A program made the translations under genes and the position numbers. A model generated the notes under the pieces. It saw only the letters and a program-made list of their open reading frames with translations, was not told the DNA's origin and made no database searches. DNA of 36,549 nt, from the NCBI GenBank assembly GCA_013298165.1, contig JAAFJU010000035.1:1-36549 (forward strand), given 5' to 3'. This stretch comes from Synechococcales cyanobacterium bin31.maxbin.ball.101 (GTDB taxonomy: Bacteria > Cyanobacteriota > Cyanobacteriia > Leptolyngbyales > Leptolyngbyaceae). Below, one piece after another: positions 5,674-34,579 of this stretch (within the stretch, counting starts at the first letter, position 1; every line of letters begins with the position of its first letter).

Positions 5674-6096
5674 TTATTCTGGTGGATGTCTCCCAACATC
5701 TACCCACATTTCCCTTGCATTTACAAGTTGAGGGCGATTCATTCGGAGGATTACGATCGTAATCTTACCGATCGAAGTGCGGGGAATGAGTTCAGTAAAA
5801 TTATCATTCCATTGAAAGTGATCACTCCAACGATCCCGTTGAGGATGGAAGAATCGAATCATTTCTCCTGCTTCTGTATCAATGGCTGACTGACGATTGG
5901 ACTTATATCGATTACAGGGTGGACAGGCTAAACACAGGTTTTCAAGTCGAGTCAGACCACCGATCGATTGGGGTGTGATATGTTCAAATTCAAACGTAAT
6001 CGCCATCAGTGCTTCGCTTGTTTGACAATAGGCACACCGATCGCAAAACTGTTTGCGAATCTGACGCTGTAATTTGACGGGAACGTATACACTCAT
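5674..6096 (-). CDS. HNH endonuclease of a recurrent two-gene module (copy 1)
   Basis: This 140-residue HNH nuclease has zinc-ribbon cysteine pairs C21-x2-C24 and C58-x2-C61 that bracket the core: FEHI (37-40) with His39, NLCLACPPCNRYK (53-65) with Asn53 and Asn62. A C-terminal extension contains RFFHPQRDRWSDHF (about 80-93) and a later IGK...IL segment. The same extension occurs in the second HNH protein of this window (32059-32502). Its start codon overlaps the stop of the upstream small gene by four bases (ATGA), which implies coupled translation. Candidate roles are restriction-like defence, a toxin, or homing; none can be chosen from sequence. Confidence 0.88.
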   Translation of the reverse strand: MSVYVPVKLQRQIRKQFCDRCAYCQTSEALMAITFEFEHITPQSIGGLTRLENLCLACPPCNRYKSNRQSAIDTEAGEMIRFFHPQRDRWSDHFQWNDNFTELIPRTSIGKITIVILRMNRPQLVNAREMWVDVGRHPPE

Positions 6097-6437
6097 GATG
6101 CAATTGCAAGTTCATCGAGGCGTTTTAAGGTGTAAAGTGCCCGAGCTTTTAGGACCATGAGATGATCGGCTTCTGCCAAAATTCGATCGAGTTCAGCAGT
6201 TTCAGCTTCAGAAAGTTTGGCTTCAGCATTTTGGGCGAGAAGCTCATCGAGACGGGCTTGTTCAGGGAGGGAGATTTTGCAATGGGCGAGGGCGAGGAGT
6301 TCATCTCGGCTGAGGCTCACGAGACATTTGCGATCGTTCAAAAGGGGATTGGAAAGCTGTCGATAGGCGTCCAAGTCCAGCAGTACCCCAATTTGGGTGC
6401 CTGTATCGTCAGTGATGTAGCGAATCGCGTCAGACAT
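6093..6437 (-). CDS. Small partner of HNH module (Phd/YefM-like N-terminus, helical C-terminus)
   Basis: The 114-residue protein is encoded directly upstream of the HNH gene and overlaps it by four bases. The N-terminus (RYITDDTGTQIGVLLDLDAY, 6-25) resembles the start of Phd/YefM antitoxins, which have a 'control ... GxxxAVLL...YE' pattern. The C-terminal half is a charged helical region, LSEAETAELDRILAEADHLM (75-94) followed by LKARALYTLKRL. This half is clearly similar to the partner of the second HNH gene (32509-32757). An antitoxin or immunity role is an inference from architecture and coupling; it could also be a DNA-recognition subunit. Confidence 0.7.
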   Translation of the reverse strand: MSDAIRYITDDTGTQIGVLLDLDAYRQLSNPLLNDRKCLVSLSRDELLALAHCKISLPEQARLDELLAQNAEAKLSEAETAELDRILAEADHLMVLKARALYTLKRLDELAIAS

Positions 6438-31888: not shown

Positions 31889-31991
31889 AGCATTCATCGT
31901 CACTGCAGGCTATTCGACTTGAGCCTCGCCTGTAATAGGACTCCAAGTCTGGATAGCTTGCAGTGAACTGGTGATTGATTGGATTCTAACC

Positions 31992-32059
31992 AACCGATTT
32001 ACTGAATGCCGTCATGTCACGGGTGTAGCGATCGTCTAGGCTGGGGGAGTGCGATCGAT
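31992..32059. repeat. 68-base direct repeat, copy A
   Basis: Copy A matches 32898-32965 in 65 of 68 positions. It begins AACCGATTTACTGAAT and ends near the GGCTGGGGGAGTGCGATCGA block. The two copies flank the HNH module (32059-32757), so they could reflect its insertion or be substrates for its loss by recombination. Confidence 0.85.
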
Positions 32060-32502
32060 TACAAGCCCATTCGTTCTCTCGCAGCCGCAGAAGGATACAA
32101 TCCCCGATCGATCAAAATCTGCCGTTCTACCAAACGATCGCGATCGTTAAACCCCAAAATTCTAGCCGTCGCTTCTCCGATCGCACTGACAGGACTGATC
32201 ACCGCTCCTTCTAGGCAAAAATGGTCACTCCAGAGATCGCGTCGAGGATTATAAAACCTCACAAATTCCTGCGTTTCCCAAATAATAGAACCCACATCAC
32301 TACCTTTATATCGGTTACAAAAAATGCAGGCATGAGCAAGATTCGTCGCATCATTCGGACCACCATGCTTAAGGCTGATAATGTGATCGATCGAGCATCC
32401 AAAAATCGTATCGTCATCATGAATCAAACAATATTCACACAAACGATCGGCACGATTGATCACTAATCTACGCAAATCCTGGGATAAATAAGGACGTTCC
32501 AT
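32059..32502 (-). CDS. HNH endonuclease of a recurrent two-gene module (copy 2)
   Basis: The 147-residue HNH protein has zinc pairs C22-x2-C25 (LCEYC) and C59-x2-C62 (CIFC), catalytic IDHI (38-41) with His40, NLAHAC (54-59) with Asn54, and NRYKG with Asn63. It shares with copy 1 the C-terminal RFYNPRRDLWSDHF and an IGEATARIL segment, so the two belong to one subfamily, although most other positions differ. The small partner gene ends six bases upstream. The gene abuts the 68-base repeat copy A and lies in a repeat-rich region. Confidence 0.88.
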   Translation of the reverse strand: MERPYLSQDLRRLVINRADRLCEYCLIHDDDTIFGCSIDHIISLKHGGPNDATNLAHACIFCNRYKGSDVGSIIWETQEFVRFYNPRRDLWSDHFCLEGAVISPVSAIGEATARILGFNDRDRLVERQILIDRGLYPSAAARERMGL

Positions 32503-32508
32503 ACAACT

Positions 32509-32757
32509 CTATGCTGCGATAAGATGTTGATGAGCACGAGCTTTAGCAAGGCGAAGAAGATGTTCTAACATCATATATTGATCAAGTTCGGCTTTCTCAG
32601 GCGCAGTCAATAGTGAATTTTTCTCACGAAATATCAGATCTGCAACTCGTTCCTTAGCCTCTTCAGACGGCTGAAAAGCAATCAGACTTTTCGGAGTAAT
32701 ACCTGCCGCAATAAAACTAATGATTTCATCATAGGCAGTTGAAGTTTCGATCGGCAT
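32509..32757 (-). CDS. Small helical partner of HNH module (copy 2)
   Basis: The 82-residue all-helical, charged protein is encoded six bases before the HNH gene. EEAKERVADLIFREKNSLLT (28-47) and APEKAELDQYMMLEHLLRLA (48-67), then KARAHQHL, align with the C-terminal half of the partner of copy 1 (its LSEAETAELDRILAEADHLM and LKARALYTL). It lacks the Phd-like N-terminal strand of copy 1, having a different start (SFIAAGITPKSLIAFQPS). The shared part is therefore the likely HNH-binding or regulatory region. Confidence 0.75.
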   Translation of the reverse strand: MPIETSTAYDEIISFIAAGITPKSLIAFQPSEEAKERVADLIFREKNSLLTAPEKAELDQYMMLEHLLRLAKARAHQHLIAA

Positions 32758-32897
32758 AACAATGCTCCTGATTACGCTCTACCCCTAGCTTAACCTATTC
32801 AGTCGCCCTACCTCAAGACTGATGGAGTTTTGCGATCGATTAGAAGCATCGATAGGTCTCCGACCGACTACGTCAACGAAGCCACCAAAATCAAACA

Positions 32898-32965
32898 AAC
32901 CGATTTACTGAATACCATCATGTCACGGGTGTAGCGATCGTCTAGGCTGGGGGAGAGCGATCGAT
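32898..32965. repeat. 68-base direct repeat, copy B
   Basis: Partner of 31992-32059 (three mismatches). Its GCGATCGTCTAGGCTGGGGG core with the following bases (32934-32963) is repeated exactly at 33485-33514, giving a third, partial copy. Confidence 0.85.
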
Positions 32966-33193: not shown

Positions 33194-33397
33194 CTAACTC
33201 GGCTTACAATCGAGAAAGCTCAACGAATCTGGATCTAACGAAGATGCGATCGCAGACTCCAGTACAGCTTCGATCGGATATCCAATTTCATCAGCACGAC
33301 TATAAAAGGCATCCCGAATATGTTTCGGTAATTTCTCAAGAAACGCCATTGCCGTTGCCGCATCCAAATGATTCACTACTTCGATCACTTGCATCAT
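33194..33397 (-). CDS. Small uncharacterised protein, possible DNA-binding or antitoxin type
   Basis: I chose ATG 33397 (with a second ATG at 33394) because GAGGG stands four to seven bases upstream; the longer TTG frame to 33430 looks untranslated. The 67-residue product has FLEKLPKHIRDAFYSRADEI (about 18-37), then GYPIEAVLESAIASSLDPDS (38-57) and a tail LSFLDCKPS. The pattern of a short helix, a turn and a second helix ending near SxLD recalls cyanobacterial orphan antitoxin-like proteins. No toxin is adjacent on the same strand. Confidence 0.6.
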   Translation of the reverse strand: MMQVIEVVNHLDAATAMAFLEKLPKHIRDAFYSRADEIGYPIEAVLESAIASSLDPDSLSFLDCKPS

Positions 33398-33484
33398 CAA
33401 TCCCTCATGATATTCTACGCAATACTCCAAACTTGATAGATCTTAGCTTACCCGATCGCCCCATCCCAAGAGTACTGAGGGAAT

Positions 33485-33514
33485 GCGATCGTCTAGGCTG
33501 GGGGAGAGCGATCG
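33485..33514. repeat. 30-base direct repeat, copy C
   Basis: Identical over 30 bases to 32934-32963 and one mismatch from the matching part of copy A. It lies in the divergent gap between the small orphan gene and the YhcG-type nuclease gene. Confidence 0.8.
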
Positions 33515-33559: not shown

Positions 33560-34579
33560 ATGTTACAGACATCCGCCGAGTACAAAACCTGGATCATCCA
33601 CCTCAAAACACGGCTGCGATCGCTCCAAATGAAAGCCGCCGTCTCAGTCAACGCGGCACTGCTGGAGTTTTACTGGGAACTGGGCGCAGACATTGTGGAC
33701 AAGCAGAAAAATAGTACTTGGGGCGATGGCTTTTTGAAGCAACTGAGTGCTGATTTAATGGCTGAATTCCCCGAGATGAAAGGATTTTCCAAGCGGAACC
33801 TAGAACAAATCCGCCGCTGGTACAGCTTCTATGCTCATGATCCTGAAATTGCGAAACAAGCTGTTGCGCAATTGAGTCAAATTCCATGGGGACATAACAT
33901 CATGATCGTTGCCAAATGCCAATCCACCCAAGAAGCTCTCTATTACGTCGAAAACACGATCGCCCACGGCTGGAGTCGAAACGTCCTCACCCACCAAATC
34001 GAAAGCAAACTTTGGGAACGCGAAGGACGATCGATTGCCAACTTTGCGGCAACACTACCCAAACCCCAATCCGATCTCGCCCAACAAACCCTAAAAGATC
34101 CCTATATCTTCGACTTTTTAACGCTAGACAAAGATTACAACGAACGAGATTTAGAACGGGGATTGATTGCACATATTACGCAATTTCTATTGGAGATGGG
34201 CGCAGGGTTTGCTTATTTGGGGCGGCAGGTAGCGCTTCAGGTCGGCGATCGGGAGTTCTTTTTAGACTTGCTGTTCTACCATACCCATTTGCATTGCTAC
34301 GTCGTCATCGAACTCAAAACCGGAGATTTTGAACCCGAACATGCCGGGAAACTCAATTTCTATCTCAAAGCCGTAGACGAACAACTCCGACGATCGGGCG
34401 ATCAGCCTACGATCGGACTCTTACTCTGCAAACAGCGAGATCGGCTCGTCGCAGAATGGGCGCTGAGTGATGTGAACAAACCTATTGGAATTTCAGAATA
34501 TCAAATTACCCATGATTTACCAGAGGAGGTTCGATCGAGCCTGCCCAGCATCGAACAAATCGAATCAGAACTCTCTTAA
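33560..34579 (+). CDS. YhcG/DUF1016-type PDDEXK nuclease
   Basis: The 339-residue protein has an N-terminal DUF1016 helical domain (about 10-160: NAALLEFYWELGADIVDKQK, GFSKRNLEQIRRWYSFY, IPWGHNIMIVAKC) and a C-terminal PDDEXK nuclease domain. The catalytic constellation is FFLDLLFYH (233-241, Asp236) and VVIELKTGDFEPEHAGKL (248-265, Glu251 and Lys253), with LLLCKQRDRLVAEWAL closing the fold. Such proteins occur near restriction systems and mobile DNA and are thought to act on DNA. It stands among repeats and nuclease genes, with no methyltransferase nearby, so a complete restriction system is not present. Confidence 0.92.
   Translation: MLQTSAEYKTWIIHLKTRLRSLQMKAAVSVNAALLEFYWELGADIVDKQKNSTWGDGFLKQLSADLMAEFPEMKGFSKRNLEQIRRWYSFYAHDPEIAKQAVAQLSQIPWGHNIMIVAKCQSTQEALYYVENTIAHGWSRNVLTHQIESKLWEREGRSIANFAATLPKPQSDLAQQTLKDPYIFDFLTLDKDYNERDLERGLIAHITQFLLEMGAGFAYLGRQVALQVGDREFFLDLLFYHTHLHCYVVIELKTGDFEPEHAGKLNFYLKAVDEQLRRSGDQPTIGLLLCKQRDRLVAEWALSDVNKPIGISEYQITHDLPEEVRSSLPSIEQIESELS

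Follow-up and report, generated by a model that had tools for sequence, protein, structure and literature searches.

A small HNH nuclease gene pair between long direct repeats in a cyanobacterial genome, and its probable insertion with duplication of target DNA

In the 36,549 nucleotides of contig JAAFJU010000035.1 from Synechococcales cyanobacterium bin31.maxbin.ball.101, referred to here in their full length as the window, the second of two HNH nuclease gene pairs is enclosed by direct repeats. This raises the question of whether the pair entered this site as a cassette and, if it did, by what route it came and what would keep it there. The explanation considered likely, taken as a whole, is that the pair was inserted by host repair, which duplicated about 75 bp of the target, and that it persists in the manner of a toxin-antitoxin system.

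The repeats and the DNA between them

The initial annotation described direct repeats of 68 bases with three mismatches on either side of the second HNH pair. This is borne out (65/68 identical, 31992-32059 against 32898-32965), and the match can be extended to 70/75 (93%), giving copy A at 31985-32059 and copy B at 32891-32965, spaced 906 bp start to start, with a self-match E-value of about 1e-27. Copy A lies directly 3' of the stop codon of the HNH gene (32059-32502, minus strand), which encodes a 147 aa HNH endonuclease-fold protein with intact HNH and zinc motifs (CxxC, DH, N, CxxCN). On the same strand at 32509-32757 is the gene for its partner, an 82 aa putative antitoxin that consists of a tail only and belongs to no curated family. 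Between the start of the partner and copy B is a region (32758-32890) presumed from its position to carry the promoter. The whole cassette (32060-32890), made up of the partner, the HNH gene and this upstream part, contains these two ORFs only and no transposase, and there are no inverted repeats of at least 20 nt at its ends.

A third, partial copy of the repeat (33485-33514, 30 nt) is 97% identical to A and 100% identical to its counterpart in B. Between copy B and this fragment is a 78 aa ORF with no assigned family (33194-33430, minus strand), which together with the partial copy is possibly a second, older insert at the same spot. A DUF1016/YhcG PDDEXK nuclease gene (33560-34579) adjoins the cassette.

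Beyond this site the 5.39 Mb genome (356 contigs) contains no complete copy of the 75-mer, and the other matches are weak and of 35 nt or less; being unique to the site, the 75-mer is a local and not a dispersed repeat. CTCAAGACTGCTGAGGGAGTGCGATCG, considered as a genome-wide repeat, was likewise rejected, as it occurs at one site only. The search proposed in the initial annotation for other cassettes bounded by the same repeat found none in the genome; the repeat belongs to the site and is not a cassette end shared between modules. In about 394 kb of the same genome there are six comparable bracketing pairs, two of them at another HNH locus and four that, judged by eye, look like repetition within coding sequence.

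The HNH protein and its partner

The HNH ORF matches PF01844 (E 2.7e-9), its catalytic and zinc residues are conserved, and its structural model is confident (pLDDT 92). Among solved folds, the Gme HNH nickase and the HNH domains of Cas9/IscB are nearest by sequence; by structure the best matches are PtuB chains from complexes of Septu and retrons (TM 0.59-0.63, Foldseek E above 1e-3). The PADLOC model for PtuB also matches, with E 2.1e-6 for this protein and 3.7e-16 for that of the first HNH pair. These matches of predicted fold and sequence are compatible with either a toxin or a defence effector. The PtuB matches would favour defence over addiction as the role of the pair, which would then be a Septu/PtuB-like effector and its regulator, inserted in the same way. 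Against this, neither a PtuA ATPase nor a retron adjoins either HNH pair, the cassette contains no ATPase gene, and the matches may reflect the HNH fold alone; on balance, defence as the function is unlikely, although credible.

A small ORF lies directly upstream of the HNH gene in 95 of 100 loci, and a profile of the tail, built from the tail-only members and then iterated, matches 93 of the 95 partners but only 4 of 475 shuffled sequences. The view that the tail is the part common to the partners is upheld by this count. The initial annotation had taken the partner at 32509-32757 to be a form that lacks a Phd-like strand; instead, tail-only is the normal form of this subfamily, with orthologues of 78-86 aa in six genomes. 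By the profile measure there are 11 tail-only partners, and the rest carry various N-terminal parts. The partner of the first HNH pair (window 5674-6437), which has no bracketing duplication, combines the common tail with a different N-terminal part. No family in Pfam or NCBIfam covers the tail, and one partner has a ribbon-helix-helix (RHH) match with E 0.0095. The partner is modelled as entirely helical (pLDDT 74). It is a reasonable inference, made already in the initial annotation, that the tail would bind the HNH nuclease.

The arrangement resembles that of a type II toxin-antitoxin module, which is made up of two small adjacent genes, usually with the antitoxin first, as the partner is here in the 95 loci given above. 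Type II antitoxins have a DNA-binding and a toxin-binding part, for which the variable N-terminus and the conserved tail would be the putative equivalents. The HNH protein would then be the toxin. In the favoured explanation the partner, through its variable N-terminus and helical tail, would restrain the nuclease, and because of this proposed restraint the loss of the pair would be costly, leading to its persistence by addiction.

Duplications at other loci and how they may have arisen

Bracketing direct repeats are present around this HNH and partner family at about 15 loci in the same genome, which has about ten more family members, and in its relatives. Examples, with spacing measured start to start, are those on contigs C13 (80 bp, 82% identity, spacing 898), C21 (87 bp, 85%, 963) and C160 (71 bp, 89%, 917) of the same genome, and those in the related genomes G026 (85 bp, 92%, 815), G027 (124 bp, 94%, 1020), G034 (64 bp, 80%, 799), G001 (125 bp, 88%, 994) and G015 (128 bp, 80%, 918); further cases exist. 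The sequence of the repeat differs from locus to locus, with short words at most in common. In the clearest cases the right copy starts 0, 3, 7, -3, 8, 10, 14 and 17 bp from the HNH stop codon, and at other loci 33-73 bp from it. The downstream border of the cassette is at the HNH stop codon, and its upstream border is the more variable of the two between loci.

With one criterion for all genes, a right copy from -15 to +75 bp from the stop codon, bracketing is seen for 16 of 92 HNH genes and, among the control ORFs, for 2 of 155 (Fisher p=4e-6). In this count the HNH loci are related and so not fully independent, and the controls, ORFs of 150 aa or more taken from these loci, may include some that are not genes. 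An earlier version of the count gave 17/76 for the HNH genes against 20/1306 positions. Two observations count against insertion with duplication: 76 of the 92 HNH loci have no detectable duplication, so that either it decays or there are other routes; and, apart from one case of 29 bp, no duplication is above about 94% identity, so that the insertion event has not been caught fresh.

Other forms of the pair were seen in the course of this comparison. At L029 (2613-3114) an orphan tail-bearing protein of the partner type lies between repeat copies with no HNH gene adjoining, and a 1.35 kb block containing an HNH pair is present at 96% identity in different surroundings on plasmids pSYLA and pSYLB of Synechocystis PCC 6714 (L218, L219). 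The HNH protein was looked for in phage records and not found there.

At several loci the repeat can be recognized as a piece of a neighbouring gene. In G027 it is the 5' end of a glycosyltransferase gene including the start codon, with the HNH stop codon overlapping that ATG; the left copy there holds a later insert of about 100 bp (L107, 5743-5840), which begins with a palindrome and has what looks like a short target repeat of its own. A WD40 gene provides its 3' end as the left copy in G026, the only species available from its genus; in G015 the left copy is the intact 3' end of hsdS, and the right copy a frameshifted, decaying duplicate. The 5' end of mfd forms the repeat on Pseudanabaena plasmid ABRG53a. 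In each of these four cases it is because of the duplication that the target gene is intact.

The mfd case also provides an empty site. Sequence of mfd is present at about 92-93% identity on six other Pseudanabaena plasmids, five of which have the full gene start, and in CP112877 and CP112875 the leader and start are single and continuous. ABRG53a has the leader and the first 44 nt of mfd, then the partner-HNH cassette, then mfd anew from nt -1, which means that about 45 bp of the mfd site were duplicated. This comparison serves the HNH family at a locus other than that of the window. The mfd start on these plasmids (L304, L305, L308, L303) is a hotspot, with DUF6883/DUF4926 or DUF4926 genes on others; CP112876 has PemK/MazF and the HNH pair, and no more of mfd than a 5' fragment.

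Elsewhere the comparisons were less complete. For the window locus, gltX is present in genomes of the same genus (86% protein identity) but both the pair and the repeat are missing there, and no clean empty site can be defined because the neighbourhood beyond gltX is not syntenic. For the cassette in G001 (L162) one flank matches in G000 while the other side is rearranged. At the carB locus the pair is present in G002 and absent in G003, but the far flanks differ. The idea of the initial annotation that the module is gained or lost as a cassette is supported at other loci of the family, through locus-specific repeats, one empty site and the shuffling described below, but without a clean empty site at the locus for which it was put forward. 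The repeat in the window looks target-derived, which at this locus rests on the uniqueness of its sequence, and we infer that the locus arose in the same way as the other duplication-flanked loci of the family.

Toxin-antitoxin genes are bracketed in the same fashion. Repeats of 84 bp (94%), for which an S1-domain gene served as target at its 3' end, enclose HigB and its antitoxin. A PIN toxin and its Phd/YefM-like antitoxin lie between repeats of 74 bp (81%), and a composite of an HNH pair and a ParE toxin between repeats of 137 bp (93%). Single-copy S1 genes are present in genus g41, but their outer flank is not conserved and they were not counted as clean empty sites for HigBA.

In the 26 species of g41, small modules are set apart by blocks of a HIP1-rich repeat of about 100 bp. 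The modules include HEPN/MNT-like, YoeB/YefM-like, BrnT/BrnA-like and PIN genes and two kinds of HNH pair, most of these names having been assigned by eye. Arrays of such modules are found at L276 (3539-16256), L277, L278 and L280, with no integrase noticed in the array stretches that were read. One HNH cassette, 87-92% identical, is present in five genomes, where homology ends at the repeat blocks and the neighbours differ; on this comparison of sequences, its recurrence is cassette shuffling. As the g41 repeats are a dispersed family and not target duplications, this route would be related to, but distinct from, the one proposed for the window.

The g41 cassettes, exchanged between copies of a dispersed repeat, do lend something to a different history of the window locus, in which a local repeat containing HIP1 (A, B and the 30 nt copy) existed beforehand and the pair was brought in by homologous recombination between copies of it on incoming DNA; the partial copy at 33485 would fit this as well. 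It is nevertheless rather unlikely, given that the 75-mer is absent from the rest of the genome and that, wherever the target is coding, the repeat comes from unique sequence of the target gene.

The nuclease might instead have moved the pair itself, by nicking opposite strands 40-140 bp apart so that repair would insert the cassette and fill in a long duplication. It is predicted to be active and is the only enzyme of the unit, the border of the cassette is at its stop codon, and the duplications do span 40-140 bp. Such self-mobilization is improbable when toxin-antitoxin modules without an HNH gene carry the same duplications, as do restriction-modification systems by the account in PMC3874152, and when upstream borders and duplication lengths vary and a conserved cassette end is not seen. 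The bolder version, which makes of the HNH pair a minimal autonomous mobile element whose tail-checked nuclease makes staggered cuts, with the cassette pasted in and 40-140 bp duplicated, is a little more improbable again. HIP1 might in that version provide microhomology at the junctions: its core, CGATCG, is near an end in 6 of 9 duplications, while among size-matched random windows the share is 3-19%, a post hoc count on nine duplications only. Chance or an assembly artefact, with A and B as similar intergenic DNA that has no link to the pair, is favoured only by the assembly being a draft (356 contigs) and is scarcely credible against the strength of the A/B self-match and the recurrence of the structure at independent loci, some in complete genomes and plasmids.

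Insertion by host repair is the favoured route, because the HNH-free toxin-antitoxin pairs show the same structure. In this explanation a fragment carrying the pair would enter by illegitimate, microhomology-type host repair of a broken or staggered end, and it is this repair that would duplicate the target; at the window locus, the two-gene cassette at 32060-32890 would have entered the site with about 75 bp of target becoming copies A and B. The insertions that survive would be those leaving the flanking genes intact, and the direct repeats could later permit loss, amplification or exchange by homologous recombination.

Comparison with known systems

The window locus bears on how small addiction modules without a transposase spread through chromosomes and on their density in cyanobacteria, as well as on the nature of a widespread gene pair of HNH nuclease and tail protein. 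Long target duplications are a base-exact record of each insertion, and the g41 arrays are natural collections of toxin-antitoxin cassettes with no evident integrase. The mechanism of insertion, a question posed in 2000 for restriction-modification genes, becomes testable in transformable cyanobacteria.

Septu PtuB and retron HNH effectors are alike in HNH fold and overall topology, with a weak profile match, but their partner is the PtuA ATPase or the retron, whereas the HNH protein here is accompanied by a helical tail protein of small size. Integron gene cassettes are likewise small, often encode toxin-antitoxin systems, have a repeat directly after the stop codon and form arrays, as the modules here do in one genus. 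Unlike integron cassettes, the loci of one genome have unrelated repeats and there is no integrase in the cassette; a reading as integron cassettes with related attC sites is disfavoured by these unrelated flanking repeats and by the absence of a full copy of the 75-mer from the rest of the genome. In Microcystis aeruginosa PCC 7806 a ParE/ParD-like toxin-antitoxin system lies between identical 152 bp direct repeats (PMC7935541). This too is a two-gene cyanobacterial module between direct repeats, and it occurs without the neighbouring gene in another strain, but its repeat holds a 16 bp inverted repeat and its toxin is RelE/ParE-like, whereas here each site has repeats of its own, and at loci other than that of the window these are parts of target genes.

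The closest likeness is to insertion with long target duplication, with which the size of the flanking repeats, their locus-specific sequence and the lack of a transposase or terminal inverted repeats all agree. Insertion with a long, variable target duplication has been described for restriction-modification systems, in the work of Nobusato 2000 and Furuta 2010 as cited in PMC3874152 and PMC3031569. By those accounts they too are compact addiction-type units without a transposase, with variable target duplications of about 100 bp recognized through genome comparison. In contrast to them, the unit here is an HNH nuclease with a small tail protein and no methyltransferase, is found in cyanobacteria and has its border at the nuclease stop codon. 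As far as the literature searches show, the HNH-tail pair as a mobile unit, its border at the nuclease stop codon and the involvement of several cyanobacterial toxin-antitoxin families are new. Insertion with long target duplication appears to be known mainly for restriction-modification genes, and here it would extend to a previously undescribed toxin-antitoxin-like pair.
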